From a virus: a stretch of 35,860 bases of DNA. The notes beneath the pieces were generated by a model. It saw only the letters and a list, made by a program, of their open reading frames with translations, was not told the DNA's origin and searched no databases. Below are positions 1,487-6,721 of this stretch, piece after piece. The DNA is taken from positions 1-35,860 of IMG/VR virus record IMGVR_UViG_3300035682_000101, one strand, 5' to 3'. A program made the translations under genes and the position numbers. Position 1 is the first letter of the stretch. The number at the start of each line of letters is the position of its first letter.

Positions 1487-1717
1487 CTACTGTCCCGCCA
1501 TTGCACGCATGATCGGCAATAGCTGCGTGGCGCCGACACCAGCCACGGAGCCGAGAATCCCAATAATGCCCCAGGCTGCTTTCTCAATCCGCCCGAGCCG
1601 CGCGTTACTCGCGCTCACCATATCCATGATCTGCTGATGGCGCATCGCGCACATCCGAACATGGATGGACAGGTCGCGACCTTCCTCGTCTAGCGCAAGA
1701 CGTTGATTTTCGGTCAT
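1487..1717 (-). CDS. Holin-like small membrane protein
   Basis: This is a 76-aa protein. It has a charged helical N-terminus (residues 1-45, with a stretch resembling XhlA-type proteins) followed by one hydrophobic segment at about 47-68 (AAWGIIGILGSVAGVGATQLL). It starts four bases inside the end of the heme-oxygenase-like gene (ATGA). One C-terminal membrane segment after a soluble helical region fits small phage membrane proteins that serve as holins or holin partners. The position near the end of the late operon supports a lysis role. No recognisable endolysin is adjacent, so the assignment rests on size, topology and position only. Confidence 0.55.
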   Translation of the reverse strand: MTENQRLALDEEGRDLSIHVRMCAMRHQQIMDMVSASNARLGRIEKAAWGIIGILGSVAGVGATQLLPIMRAMAGQ

Positions 1718-2238
1718 GCTGCGGCCTTTGGATGCGCGGATCGCGTGTTCGTCTCAATCTCGTCCATCACCGCCAGCAGCGCGGCGAAGGTCGCCCGCGC
1801 TGGTTCCGCCAGGTCGTCACGCTCACGACAGCCCCGCACGAACGTTTCGGCCTCTGCCGGCATCGGGTATGCCACATGCGCGGTCGGCAGGCCGGCAGCG
1901 CCCATCGTTCGCGCGAGCATGGCCCCGCCACGGCGATGCGCGCCGTGCAGGACGTAGGCAGCACCCTCGCGCTGCGCCTGCGTCGCCAGGCTCGCGGCGT
2001 AGGTCCATGCCGCGTCGCTGGAACGTGGCGCAGGCAACAGAGCAAGGTCGGCGCGCAGTAGCCCCTCGCGCGTCATGTGTGGCGGCAGAATTGGATCTAC
2101 GGTGATGTGGATGACGCGGAACGCCTCAAGCCAATCTGCCCACTCCTGCCGCGTGATGATGCCGGCGGACATGCGCTGACCGACAGGGTGCGCCTCGCAT
2201 GCGTGGTGCAGATCGCGCGTGGCGAGGTAGAGGCTCAT
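1714..2238 (-). CDS. Heme-oxygenase-superfamily protein
   Basis: This is a 174-aa all-helical protein that matches the pattern of bacterial heme oxygenases. ATRDLHHACE (6-15) fits the A-T-x-x-x-H-x-x-x-E signature with H11 as candidate proximal heme ligand. YVLHGAHRRGG (95-105) resembles the glycine-containing YVLEGS-xLGG distal helix of BphO-type enzymes, with G99, G104 and G105. The ending MDEIETN is also family-like. Heme oxygenases open heme to biliverdin, iron and CO using reduced electron donors; whether this one binds heme is unknown. The gene overlaps the fibre-assembly-like gene upstream and the holin-like gene downstream by 4 bases each, so it is a settled member of the late operon. 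Phage heme oxygenases are known from cyanophages. Its role here, metabolic or structural, is open. Confidence 0.65.
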   Translation of the reverse strand: MSLYLATRDLHHACEAHPVGQRMSAGIITRQEWADWLEAFRVIHITVDPILPPHMTREGLLRADLALLPAPRSSDAAWTYAASLATQAQREGAAYVLHGAHRRGGAMLARTMGAAGLPTAHVAYPMPAEAETFVRGCRERDDLAEPARATFAALLAVMDEIETNTRSAHPKAAA

Positions 2239-2747
2239 ATCGACAGGGCTTTCGCAGATCGGAACCGATCATCCAGCCCGCGATCGTTAAGCCCGCACGC
2301 GGCGGCGATCAGCGTGACGAGCGGATGATTGCGCTCCACCGTGTTGCCGTATTCCCAAACCTCCTGCGCGATGGCGCGTGGCGCGTCTGGCATCGCGGCG
2401 ATAGCCGCCTCGACCTGGCCCATCTCGCCGGCCATGCGGAAAATAGCGCGGAGGCGCCACAGCGCGACCTCGGCAGGCACGTCGGCCCGTTCTTGTTCCG
2501 CAATCTCCCCGTCCGTCATCTCGCGCCACGTTTGCGTTTCGATGGCTTCGGTATCGGTGATCTGCCATTCCGAGCCAGTAAATACCGCGCCGGCGGGATG
2601 AGGCACTAGACGATGTTTGCGCCATCCGAGCCTGTAAAGTTCAGGATCTGATAGCGTGTGAAAGTTGGAGACGTTGCGCCATGACTGCGGCAAATAGCTC
2701 GGCCCCAGCACAACAACGCCAGCTTCAGTCAAGCACCAGTTTTGCAT
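2235..2747 (-). CDS. Tail fibre assembly-like protein
   Basis: This is a 170-aa protein following the fibre genes. The middle segment (TDTEAIETQTWREMTDGEIAEQ) resembles the linker of phage tail-fibre assembly proteins. The C-terminal segment (VWEYGNTVERNHPLVTLIAAACGLNDRGLDDRFRSAKAL) is a motif frequently seen after fibre genes in GC-rich phages. ATG at 2745-2747 is preceded by AAGGA (2755-2759), which overlaps the stop of the propeller gene. Most likely it is a chaperone for, or small partner of, the distal receptor-binding proteins. No catalytic motif is visible. Confidence 0.55.
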   Translation of the reverse strand: MQNWCLTEAGVVVLGPSYLPQSWRNVSNFHTLSDPELYRLGWRKHRLVPHPAGAVFTGSEWQITDTEAIETQTWREMTDGEIAEQERADVPAEVALWRLRAIFRMAGEMGQVEAAIAAMPDAPRAIAQEVWEYGNTVERNHPLVTLIAAACGLNDRGLDDRFRSAKALSI

Positions 2748-2759
2748 ACCAGCTTTCCT

Positions 2760-3794
2760 TTAGGCCGGGGGTCCGTAGAGCGCGGGCGGATAGAACGCGA
2801 TGCCGCGTCCTGTGCTGGGCGGCAACACCGTCGGTTCGTTCAGCCGGCTAAACGAGTTACCGTTTCGGCTGTAAATTATAATCCAGGGAGATGCATTGAA
2901 TGTGACCGCGAGGTAAGTGCCGTCCGCTGAAAACGCGACGTTGATTGCGGTGCTGGTGGGTAAATCCCCAGGGTTTGAGAGTTTGGTAAATGTATTGCCG
3001 CTGCGGCTGTAAATCGTGACAAAAGGCGTCGTCAGATGAGCTACAGCAAAATATGCACCGTCCGCTGAAAACGCGACGCTTCGCCCGCTGCCCGCTGGCA
3101 GGTTTGCAGGGTTGCTAATCTTGGTAAAAACATTCCCGCTGCGGCTATAGATCGTGACGTTTGGCGTGTTGTTGTGAGCCACGGCAAGGTGGGTACCGTC
3201 TGCTGAAAACGCGACACCGAACGCAGTAAAAGCCGGTAACGTCGCAGGGTTTGCCAACTTTGTGAAAACATTCCCGCTGCGGCTATAGATTGTAATGTAT
3301 GGCGAACTTGGGTGCCCAACTGCCAGATAGGTGCCGTCCGCTGAAAATGCGACAGCCTGGCCGGTGCTAGCCGGCAAACTTGCAGGATTGCTCAGCTTGG
3401 TAAATGTATTGCCGCTGCGGCTGTAAATCGTGACAAAAGGCGTCGTGTTATGCCCGACAGCAAGATAAGCGCCATCCGCTGAAAATGCGACGGAATTGCC
3501 ATTACTGGCCGGCAAGCTCGCAGGGTCGCTCAGCTTAGTGAATGTATTCCCGCTGCGACTGTAAATCGTGATGTAGGGCGTGCCGCCATGCGCTACCGCA
3601 AGATATGCACCGTCCGCTGAAAACGCGACACCTAGACCGGCTGTGATTGGCAACGTCGCAGGGTTTGAAAGTTTGGTAAAGACGCCGCCGTTCTTGCTGT
3701 AGATCGAGACGAAAGGCGTAAGATCGTGCCCAACCGCGAGGTATCCGTCTGCTGCGTTTGCCGCAGCTTGCTTGTAAAACCTGCGCGCCAACAT
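2760..3794 (-). CDS. Seven-bladed beta-propeller, probable receptor-binding tail protein
   Basis: This 344-aa protein is built almost entirely of seven near-identical repeats of about 46 residues (core AFSADGxYLAVxHxxTPxxTIYSRSGNxFTKLxNP). A C-terminal partial repeat (GRGIAFYPPALYG) would complete the first blade, the usual velcro closure of WD40/YVTN-type propellers. The repeats are also visible in DNA at about 138-base spacing. ATG at 3792-3794 overlaps the stop of the fibre gene (TGATG); a longer start at 3827 is possible. Being encoded immediately after the fibres, it probably sits at the tail tip and binds a surface ligand. No catalytic residues are evident. Confidence 0.75.
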   Translation of the reverse strand: MLARRFYKQAAANAADGYLAVGHDLTPFVSIYSKNGGVFTKLSNPATLPITAGLGVAFSADGAYLAVAHGGTPYITIYSRSGNTFTKLSDPASLPASNGNSVAFSADGAYLAVGHNTTPFVTIYSRSGNTFTKLSNPASLPASTGQAVAFSADGTYLAVGHPSSPYITIYSRSGNVFTKLANPATLPAFTAFGVAFSADGTHLAVAHNNTPNVTIYSRSGNVFTKISNPANLPAGSGRSVAFSADGAYFAVAHLTTPFVTIYSRSGNTFTKLSNPGDLPTSTAINVAFSADGTYLAVTFNASPWIIIYSRNGNSFSRLNEPTVLPPSTGRGIAFYPPALYGPPA

Positions 3795-6721
3795 CAGAAG
3801 CTCTGACCTGCAATAATGGCCATCCATTCGGCGCCGCCATTCGTCGTCGTCATGACGATCAGGTCCTTCTTGGTGTTCGTGCTAGTCAGCGTCGGCGCTG
3901 TGCCGCCAGGCCACTTCACCGCCGCAGGCCACGTCACCGCACGCGCCGTGCCATCGGCAGTCAGAATGAGCGTAAACGACCCGGCGCGTCCGCTTGCTGG
4001 CGGGTTGCTAATAGTCACCGTCGTGATCGCTGCGTTAAGAGCTACATCAAAAACGTTGCCATTTTCGAGGTTGAGCGTCAGCGCGCCGCTACTAATCGCC
4101 GGCGCGGTCACAACTTCGGCGTAGTCTTTGATGTAGGGCCGCGTCAGTAGGTTGTCGGCTATATTCTGCTCGCCGCTGAACGTGTTGGCGGCGAGTGATG
4201 CAGCGCCGCTCACGTCGGCCACCGCCAGCGTCACCGCGCCCGTGCGCCCGGCGACGGACTGCACCGGAGCGCCTGCTGCCGCGATGAACCCGGCATCGTT
4301 GGTCAGGGTGCTGATGGCGTCACCCGGCTGCGTTGCGCTGTCTGCCAGTGCCAGGCTTGCAATGGTGCCACTGGACAGGCTGACGGTGCGGTTGGCGCTC
4401 AGATCACCACCGCCGGACAGCCCGGTGCCGGCCGTCAGCGTGCGCGCGGGCTGCACGGCGCTGTCGGCCAGCGCCAGCGACGCGACCGAGCCGGCGGACA
4501 GGCCGAGCGTGCGATCCGCCGTCAGGTCCCCGCCGCCCGAGAGGCCGGTGCCAGTTGAAACGCTGCGCGCGGTCAGCACCGCGCCGATGCTGGCCGGCGT
4601 GATGCTGACCGCCCCCGCCGCAGTGAGCCGGCCCTGCCCGTCCACGGTGAATGTGCCGACAGCGGCGGACGATCCGTAGCTGCCCGCCGTGACCGCCGTG
4701 TTGGCGAGGCTGATGGTGCGATCGGCAGCCAGTGTACCGCCACCCGTCAAACCAGTGCCTGCCGTCAGCGTTCTCGCTAATGGCGTGTAGGTGTTGGCCA
4801 GAAAGGTCGAAACGGCAAACTGCGTCGGCACCGTGTTGCCATCCGTCGTGCCGGTGCTGGCCAACAGGCTGGTGTTGTTGCTGATCTCCTGCAACTGCAC
4901 CCCGACAGTCGAAAAACCGCCATTACGGGAAAAAGGCCCGATGAAGTTTAGGCCCGACAAATTGAATTGATCGGTATTGATCGTCACCGAGCCAGTCGTG
5001 CCATTCACGTCAAACTGCGGCCCGACCCTAAAATTGCCGAGCTGGTCGGTCGAGCTGAAAAACACGCGCCCGCCGTTTTCCTCAACGATCTCGTTTGCCG
5101 GAATCGGGATGCCGCCATTCCACGGCAATGCGAGATAGTTGGTTCCTGCGCCGACGTATTCCATCGTGTGCCCGCCGGTCGCGATCTGTGAGCGGAGGAA
5201 CATTGCCACCGTCTCGCCGCCATCCAGCGCCGCAGCCAAAAGAGGATAAAACAGCACGTTGTAGCCGCCCGCCACGGGAGACGATCCGGTGACGGTGTAG
5301 GTCGCGCCGTCAACCGTGAACACCATGCCCGCCGCAGGCCGGTTGCTGGCGCCTATGCGGTTGCTTGTCAGGCTGGTGACGGCAATCTGCGCCACACCCA
5401 GCGCAGCCGCGCTCGCCACGCCGGTGAATAGCGGCGTTGCGCTGCGGCCCGTTGCCATCAAGCCATAAGTGCCAAAGTCCGTTGTGGAGTTGGACAGGTT
5501 CACTTGGCCGCCGCTCTCGGCACGAACGTGGTAGGAGCAGAACGTGCCGAAGAAAGACACTAGCTGCGCGTAGGCGTCGTTCTTCACCAAGCAGCCAGGA
5601 CCGTCGAGGTTCACCTGGGTAAAGCTGTCAACAACCATGCTGCGGATTGGGCTGTTCGGCGCGCACTTGGCGCCGTCCACTTCCATCCCGCCGCCGGTCG
5701 TGCCGTCGCTCGTGCTGCCCGCCAAGCCGCTATCGTCCTGCGCCGTGTAGGACGTGCAGTTTTGGATGTATGGGCTTTTAAGCACGTAGGCGCCGAGACC
5801 GCTGGCGCCGATCGCCGTGTTGTTGGCAGCCGCGTTGAACGACACCGCCCAGGCGCCCGCCTGGTGCCGCGCAAAGGTCATGCCGGTCAGGTATGCGCCG
5901 CTGTCCACCAGCCACATATGCTGCGTTGCGGTGCCCGTCGTCGGCCGTACCTCGACGACGCGCAGACCGTCGCCGACAACAGAAACATCGCGCGGCACCA
6001 CCATCGGGCATGTTTCGGTGTAAATGCCCGCCCGCACCCGAATCACGTCGCCGGCCGTGGCAGCAGCAAGCGCTGCGCTGATGGTCCGTTTTGGCGCAGT
6101 TGGCAGATCCCCCGCCGCCGTATCGTTTCCGGCCGGATCGACCCAGATCACGCGCGATGCGGCAACCATACTTCCGGGTTGCAGCGCCGTGTCTGCTAGT
6201 GCCAGGCTCGCGATCGAACCACTGGACAAGCCGACAGTGCGATCGGCCGCCAGCGTCCCTCCGCCTGTCAAACCAGTGCCTGCGGTGATGGTTCGCGCCG
6301 ATGCCGCAGCACCGGACACGTCGGCCACAGTTAGCGTAACAACGCCAGTGCGGCCCGCCACGGACTGCACAAGCGATGACCCGACAAAATCCGGCGCCGA
6401 TACATTTGACGCCATGAAAAAGGCGCGGCGGTCATTTAGCGCACCAGCTGTGGAGCTATCCACGCTGATAGTCCAAGTGCCCGCTTGATCCGGCGTAAAT
6501 ACGCATCGGTAAACGCCTGTTGATTCATTGACCACAGCCGGCGGCGTCCCGGCGGTGCCATCTGCTTTGACGAGCGCAAACGCGACGTTGGCCGCCGCCG
6601 TCAACTGTTGCGTCAACGTGTCGCGGTAGTCTACCCAAACCGTGACGTCGCCGCCGAGCGTGAACGTTGGCCGGTTGTTGTTCGCACGCGCGCCAAAGCG
6701 AATGCTTGCATATATTGCCAT
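3794..6721 (-). CDS. Large tail fibre with beta-helix domain
   Basis: This is a 975-aa fibre. The N-terminus (about 1-105) is an Ig-like beta domain that could attach to the tail. A linker VQSVAGRTGVVTLTVADVSGAA then leads to several copies of the fibre repeat AGTGLTGGGTLAADRT (near 145, 660, 740 and 770). In between, DPAGNDTAAGDLPTAPKRTISAALAAA followed by GDVIRVRAGIYTET is the start of a DUF1565/pectate-lyase-like right-handed beta-helix. The C-terminus (LNLENGNVFDVALN..AAVKWPGGTAPTL) is a common terminal fibre domain. The protein is probably trimeric and binds the host surface. It starts 3 bases after the S74 fibre gene. Repeats make it prone to recombination. Confidence 0.8.
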   Translation of the reverse strand: MAIYASIRFGARANNNRPTFTLGGDVTVWVDYRDTLTQQLTAAANVAFALVKADGTAGTPPAVVNESTGVYRCVFTPDQAGTWTISVDSSTAGALNDRRAFFMASNVSAPDFVGSSLVQSVAGRTGVVTLTVADVSGAAASARTITAGTGLTGGGTLAADRTVGLSSGSIASLALADTALQPGSMVAASRVIWVDPAGNDTAAGDLPTAPKRTISAALAAATAGDVIRVRAGIYTETCPMVVPRDVSVVGDGLRVVEVRPTTGTATQHMWLVDSGAYLTGMTFARHQAGAWAVSFNAAANNTAIGASGLGAYVLKSPYIQNCTSYTAQDDSGLAGSTSDGTTGGGMEVDGAKCAPNSPIRSMVVDSFTQVNLDGPGCLVKNDAYAQLVSFFGTFCSYHVRAESGGQVNLSNSTTDFGTYGLMATGRSATPLFTGVASAAALGVAQIAVTSLTSNRIGASNRPAAGMVFTVDGATYTVTGSSPVAGGYNVLFYPLLAAALDGGETVAMFLRSQIATGGHTMEYVGAGTNYLALPWNGGIPIPANEIVEENGGRVFFSSTDQLGNFRVGPQFDVNGTTGSVTINTDQFNLSGLNFIGPFSRNGGFSTVGVQLQEISNNTSLLASTGTTDGNTVPTQFAVSTFLANTYTPLARTLTAGTGLTGGGTLAADRTISLANTAVTAGSYGSSAAVGTFTVDGQGRLTAAGAVSITPASIGAVLTARSVSTGTGLSGGGDLTADRTLGLSAGSVASLALADSAVQPARTLTAGTGLSGGGDLSANRTVSLSSGTIASLALADSATQPGDAISTLTNDAGFIAAAGAPVQSVAGRTGAVTLAVADVSGAASLAANTFSGEQNIADNLLTRPYIKDYAEVVTAPAISSGALTLNLENGNVFDVALNAAITTVTISNPPASGRAGSFTLILTADGTARAVTWPAAVKWPGGTAPTLTSTNTKKDLIVMTTTNGGAEWMAIIAGQSF

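Follow-up and report, generated by a model that had tools for sequence, protein, structure and literature searches.

A 174-residue protein, P0001, encoded in a 35,860-base virus record (the whole stretch analysed, hereafter the window), is a member of the heme-oxygenase (HO) superfamily, in a divergent branch borne by phages, and has the HO fold. Genes of this branch are usually placed at the end of a tail-fibre cassette, they co-occur with one rare beta-helix fibre domain, and they are under strong purifying selection. Alignment suggests that the residues that hold heme have been kept and that the distal network of HO-1 has been swapped for an equally invariant set. On balance, opinion tips slightly toward a distally rewired, heme-binding branch of the superfamily that is kept as an accessory of the tail-fibre module and acts late in infection.

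The open reading frame (ORF) proposed in a sequence-only reading of the window is real but lies on the minus strand (Table 1). That reading coupled it to a fibre-assembly-like and a holin-like gene in a tail/lysis cassette, and the coupling stands: 4-nt ATGA overlaps join the HO-like gene to both neighbours (2235-2238 and 1714-1717). The identity of the assembly-like gene also holds up, since the phrog_6034 match covers its C-terminus and its cluster includes a member matching Phage_tail_APC at 2.5e-21. The small ORF that follows can be called holin-like only as a guess, its match to Pfam Phage_holin_2_1 (E 0.25) being under the cut-off. As no endolysin was recognised among the annotated genes beside the HO-like gene of the window, the lysis setting is unconfirmed; the cassette is a tail-fibre cassette. 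The small ORF is followed in turn by a metallophosphoesterase-like gene (phrog_7339), a relative of which also comes after the HO-like gene in locus L067. The beta-propeller ORF shares 34 nt with the fibre ORF and is built of near-identical repeats (FSADGxYLAVxHxxTPFVTIYSRSGNTFTKLSNPA); its product is probably part of the receptor-binding tip and may be a fast-varying one. Elsewhere in the window, the portal and capsid regions share short stretches of 73-77% identity with Pseudanabaena phage Pan4 and Microcystis phages Mae-JY02/Mel-JY03.

Table 1. Features of the HO-like gene and its neighbourhood, in window coordinates.
Feature	Position	Strand	Basis or remark
Metallophosphoesterase-like protein (phrog_7339), helix-turn-helix-like N-terminus	268-1587	minus	after HO-like and small ORFs
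Small protein, 76 aa, one hydrophobic stretch (hydropathy)	1487..1717	minus	downstream of HO-like gene, ATGA-coupled
HO-like protein P0001, 174 aa	1714..2238	minus	ORF; profile, profile-profile and AlphaFold comparison
R138 codon; counterpart of Arg183 in HO-1, which binds a heme propionate	1825..1827	minus	HMM alignment; invariant
H101 codon; position of the catalytic Asp140 in HO-1	1936..1938	minus	invariant in family; Asp in known phage HOs
H44 codon; position of Tyr58 in HO-1	2107..2109	minus	alignment to HO-1; invariant
H11 codon; counterpart of His25 in HO-1, the proximal ligand of heme	2206..2208	minus	HMM and structural alignment
Tail-fibre-assembly-like protein, 170 aa	2235..2747	minus	phrog_6034 8e-15; ATGA overlap with HO-like gene
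Beta-propeller repeat protein, 355 aa	2760..3827	minus	WD40-like propeller matches; flanked by the fibre and assembly genes
Tail fibre protein, 975 aa	3794..6721	minus	phrog_17885 tail fiber 2.9e-53, phrog_29288 1.4e-63
Beta-helix (DUF1565-like) fibre domain	4991..6163	minus	local HMM search and whole-record search

Single-sequence searches of Pfam, PHROGs and the PDB with P0001 gave nothing useful, a search of NCBIfam returned only noise, and the family profile alone was informative. When a profile of 28 relatives was compared with the PDB, all 18 matches were heme oxygenases (best E 5e-4), and profile-profile alignment (hhalign) of the family with seven bacterial HOs of the BphO/HemO type gave an E value of 1.7e-13. 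PF01126 was matched at E <= 1 by 20 of the 28 members (best 2.9e-6), P0001 itself having no match. The AlphaFold model of P0001 (mean pLDDT 96.2) aligned with rat HO-1 (1dvg) over 167 residues at 2.5 A (Z 18.7, VIA), and among the best-ranked PDB fold matches (VIA) at least 47 top entries were all HOs; the best structural matches thus lie within the superfamily. Foldseek related the model to HmuO at E 1.7e-4, with a probability of 1.00 throughout, and the only strong matches in BFVD were two uncultured Caudovirales phage entries that carry the automatic name 'heme oxygenase'. Profile, profile-profile and structure comparisons hence all support the HO relationship that the sequence-only reading had put forward.

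The heme pocket was mapped by HMM alignment, multiple alignments and structural alignment, with model residue 1 at HO-1 residue 15 (offset 14). The resulting correspondences (HO-1 = P0001) are Thr21=T7, His25=H11, Glu29=E15, Tyr58=H44, Glu62=D48, His132=A93, Arg136=L97, Gly139=A100, Asp140=H101, Gly143=G104 and Arg183=R138, with Phe207=F151 placed by position in the C-terminal helix. The proximal pattern A6-T7-x3-H11-x3-E15 is present as first described; H11, which alignment puts where HO-1 has its proximal His25, is invariant in the family and is kept in bacterial and phage HOs as well. E15 and R138 are likewise aligned and invariant. The distal motif, YVLHGAHRRGG at 95-105, contains G99 and G104 as reported. 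Four residues separate G99 from the GG pair, which is HO-1-like spacing, and the BphO-type YVLEGSxLGG is one residue shorter. The pocket is not simply HO- or BphO-like, since Asp140 and Tyr58 are replaced by an invariant His/His pair (His101 and His44). In a remote prophage relative (L124), Thr stands at the Asp140 place and H11, H12, H44, H121 and R138 are kept. Invariant residues occupy 18 of the 23 positions that the literature gives for the HO-1 pocket, versus 11 elsewhere. The proteobacterial enzymes NmHO and PigA are active HOs that have Ser instead of Asp140, and the bacterial HO homologs aligned here have Ser or Thr at that place. Because BphO-type bacterial enzymes also lack it, the missing Asp alone does not exclude HO activity. 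In HO-1, the distal Asp140 and Tyr58 are part of the oxygen-activating hydrogen-bond network, the D140A mutation turns the enzyme into a peroxidase, and the position of Tyr58 is a Glu in diiron proteins (PMC5623701).

Scans of IMG/VR with the HO-like protein recovered 40 viral relatives (40-70% identity) and, in a second scan, 106 contigs, such that more than 100 uncultured viral contigs, together with Rhodobacteraceae prophages, carry relatives of P0001. Relatives were found in three Rhodobacteraceae genomes (Roseovarius TE539, Aliiroseovarius S1123 and one MAG), and the Rhodobacteraceae genomes that bear these prophages have no Pfam-level HO of their own. L124, with 36% identity to P0001, lies in another alphaproteobacterial genome, and a viral scan with it as query found no relatives. 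Named phages gave no match to P0001, and a search of plasmids and INPHARED yielded no relatives except the HO of phage Mosig (24% identity, E 6e-3). Across 28 diverse family members, 29 positions are invariant, including H11-H12-A13-C14-E15-A16-H17, W36, H44, D48, D64, Y95-V96-L97, G99-A100-H101, G104-G105, H121, R138 and F151, and dN/dS between close pairs of HO-like genes is 0.04-0.24. Given the many viral relatives, the invariant residues and the low dN/dS, the ORF is not a chance one.

The usual gene order among 37 representative loci is fibre, small proteins, fibre-assembly protein and, last, the HO-like gene. With genes called by a simple ORF picker and many records being fragments, the HO-like gene overlaps the preceding gene by 4 nt or 1 nt in 20 of 34 loci. 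What follows it differs: L055 has a terminase module there and L080 has fibre-assembly genes, while L046, L048 and L120 encode three tail proteins, one for tail assembly, a peptidase-like minor one and a very large one. In 21 of the 29 loci with enough sequence, a beta-helix fibre domain of DUF1565-like type is no more than 5.2 kb from the HO-like gene. By raw counts that ignore kinship, the domain is present in 22 of 35 HO-bearing virus records and, among the 10 such records that reach 50 kb, in 9; of the 13 HO-bearing records without it, 9 are under 13 kb. This domain is rare, with weak matches in 22 of 50,697 INPHARED records, none of them over 80% of the domain length. The converse relation is looser, an HO-like gene being near the beta-helix fibre domain in 20 of 80 loci, and a whole search of 29 larger fibre-domain records found an HO-like gene in two, one of which was in the earlier count. 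The HO-like gene is thus absent from most viruses that carry the fibre domain, and the fibre therefore does not need it; as HO-like genes in turn mostly come with the fibre domain, the gene looks like an accessory to that fibre. In the clade L072-L089 the HO-like gene is far from any fibre; G404 and G439 of that clade nonetheless carry the fibre domain, the two genes being far apart in G404. In the L124 prophage the HO-like gene is 44 bp from a beta-helix fibre gene, in opposite order. A test of whether HO and fibre evolve in step showed only a weak correlation of their distances (Mantel r 0.26, p 0.02). None of the papers searched describes a fibre-linked HO.

Two further features of these cassettes were seen. 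In L066, L067 and L116, a protein of 354-364 aa whose start resembles, by eye, a family-2 glycosyltransferase is encoded a few genes before the HO-like gene, which suggests fibre glycosylation there. The fibre gene of L120 (Roseovarius TE539; 2142-4131) has one in-frame TAG, and this prophage may therefore be decaying or the base miscalled.

P0001 is probably a heme-binding protein. Heme would be held by H11 as axial ligand, with R138 at a propionate, and His101 and His44 in the distal pocket would be expected to alter the handling of bound O2 or peroxide because they replace the Asp140-Tyr58 pair of the HO-1 oxygen-activating network. The protein would be made late, jointly with the tail fibres, and the lasting tie to the fibre module speaks for action late in infection, close to assembly or adsorption. 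Within heme binding, about equal weight is given to ring opening, with late release of iron and CO, and to a heme-carrying or peroxidase-like role in the fibre or in adsorption; a biliverdin-forming activity of P0001 is possible. In one form of the latter role, considered unlikely, P0001 would carry heme as part of the tail-fibre system: it would either be built into the virion, letting the fibre tip engage heme or iron uptake receptors or mimic their cargo, or act in fibre maturation as an oxidase or peroxidase that depends on heme. If true, no HO-fold protein before it would have had such a role. The virion variant would be the 'Ferrojan horse' idea transferred to heme; that idea is a possible frame for P0001 rather than evidence, and in a paper that cites it, infection by phages presumed to rely on it was not lowered by TonB mutations (PMC10892097). 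Against the rewired, fibre-accessory reading stand the apparent change of Asp140, Gly139, Tyr58, Arg136 and His132 of HO-1, all five, in the P0001 family, and the fibre-domain viruses without the gene and the L072-L089 clade described above.

A substantial, though minority, share of probability goes to a working HO borne as an ordinary auxiliary metabolic gene, degrading host heme to biliverdin, CO and iron and placed in a late operon for expression timing only. The HO fold and proximal His would fit, as would the active proteobacterial HOs that also lack Asp140. Active phage HOs from non-cyanobacterial hosts exist (PMC11480375), but known phage HOs keep the GDLSGG motif that the P0001 family has replaced, loss of Asp140 by D140A makes HO-1 a peroxidase (PMC5623701), and none of 38 HO-bearing records has a bilin reductase, whereas Mosig hemO lies beside one. 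Metabolism alone would also leave the lasting link with the fibre domain unexplained. That link could itself reflect no more than common descent, or a site near fibre genes that often takes up cargo, without any tie in function, though this is rather doubtful. Close relatives do share both genes, the weak correlation of distances points the same way, and cargo genes are common in late regions between fibre and lysis genes; yet the pairing persists with different following genes, recurs in opposite order in the remote L124 prophage, and is retained in records such as G404 where the two genes are far apart.

The fibre-cassette position, the coupling to fibre or assembly genes and the loss of some canonical catalytic residues would also suit an HO fold that has lost heme binding and been recruited as a structural protein or as a chaperone for the fibre. 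This is held to be improbable: invariance concentrates on pocket positions, which weakens any purely structural reading, and an invariant His ligand, Glu and Arg would be needless for a chaperone. Less probable still is a metalloenzyme from the broader HO-like superfamily that works without heme, in which His11, 12, 17, 44, 101 and 121 with E15 and D48 would hold iron. The number of invariant His and acidic residues is unusual, and the Tyr58 place is Glu in diiron proteins (PMC5623701), but His11, E15 and R138 correspond one-for-one to heme-site residues, and all PDB sequence-profile matches and best-ranked fold entries are heme oxygenases. The familiar three-His/three-carboxylate diiron motif was not seen by eye, and the 50 fold matches listed include no HO-like diiron oxidase, a listing that is no measure of absence.

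Phage HOs have so far been read as genes of pigment or iron metabolism, and a large, mostly unnamed branch with a rebuilt distal pocket and a tie to fibres, found in alphaproteobacterial prophages and uncultured viruses, is a misfit to that account. The altered pocket and the tie to one kind of fibre hint that heme is used late in the infection cycle or when tails are built or deployed. Whether phages draw on the chemistry of heme or iron for adhesion, or late in infection, can be tested directly with this branch. The family also provides a natural Asp140His/Tyr58His variant for the study of HO oxygen activation.

Phage HOs are not confined to the cyanophages that the sequence-only reading named. 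Pelagiphages have them too, as does a freshwater phage with presumed alphaproteobacterial hosts, and the enzyme of this freshwater phage makes biliverdin (PMC11480375). HO-fold genes are borne by cyanophages S-SSM6a, P-HM1 and P-SSM2, pelagiphage Mosig and freshwater phage CB_2 (vHemO), and the Mosig HO is the only convincing INPHARED match to the P0001 family. The HOs of S-SSM6a, P-HM1 and Mosig have GDLSGG, with Asp kept, whereas the P0001 family has YVLxGAHxxGG; those of P-HM1 and Mosig are found among metabolic genes (bilin reductase, ferrochelatase, psbA), in contrast to the fibre cassettes of the P0001 family. Mosig hemO adjoins its bilin reductase, and a search of the 38 HO-bearing records, many of them fragments, for ferredoxin-dependent bilin reductase (PF05996) found none, the control search finding that of Synechococcus. 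In P-SSM2 (L223:4710-7728), a canonical cyanophage HO is encoded two genes away from a tail-fibre-like protein in which a distant form of the beta-helix domain occurs; this is probably coincidence and was not accepted as the same link, most cyanophage HOs having no such neighbour. With canonical HOs (HO-1, HmuO and cyanobacterial HO; PF01126), the P0001 family shares the fold (Z 17-19 over ~165 residues), the proximal His, the Glu29 and Arg183 equivalents and the distal Gly143-Gly144; it differs in being ~40 residues shorter, in its own invariant HHACEAH motif and, relative to HO-1, in the changes of Asp140 to His, Tyr58 to His, Gly139 to Ala, Arg136 to Leu and His132 to Ala. The BphO/HemO-type bacterial HOs resemble it in profile-profile comparison, in the proximal His and in lacking Asp140, and differ in their shorter distal motif and in having no HHACEAH. 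The closest viral-model structures, UniProt A0A6J5RJ96 and A0A6J5KN38 (TM 0.83-0.84), are similar in length to P0001 but only 20-21% identical to it in sequence.
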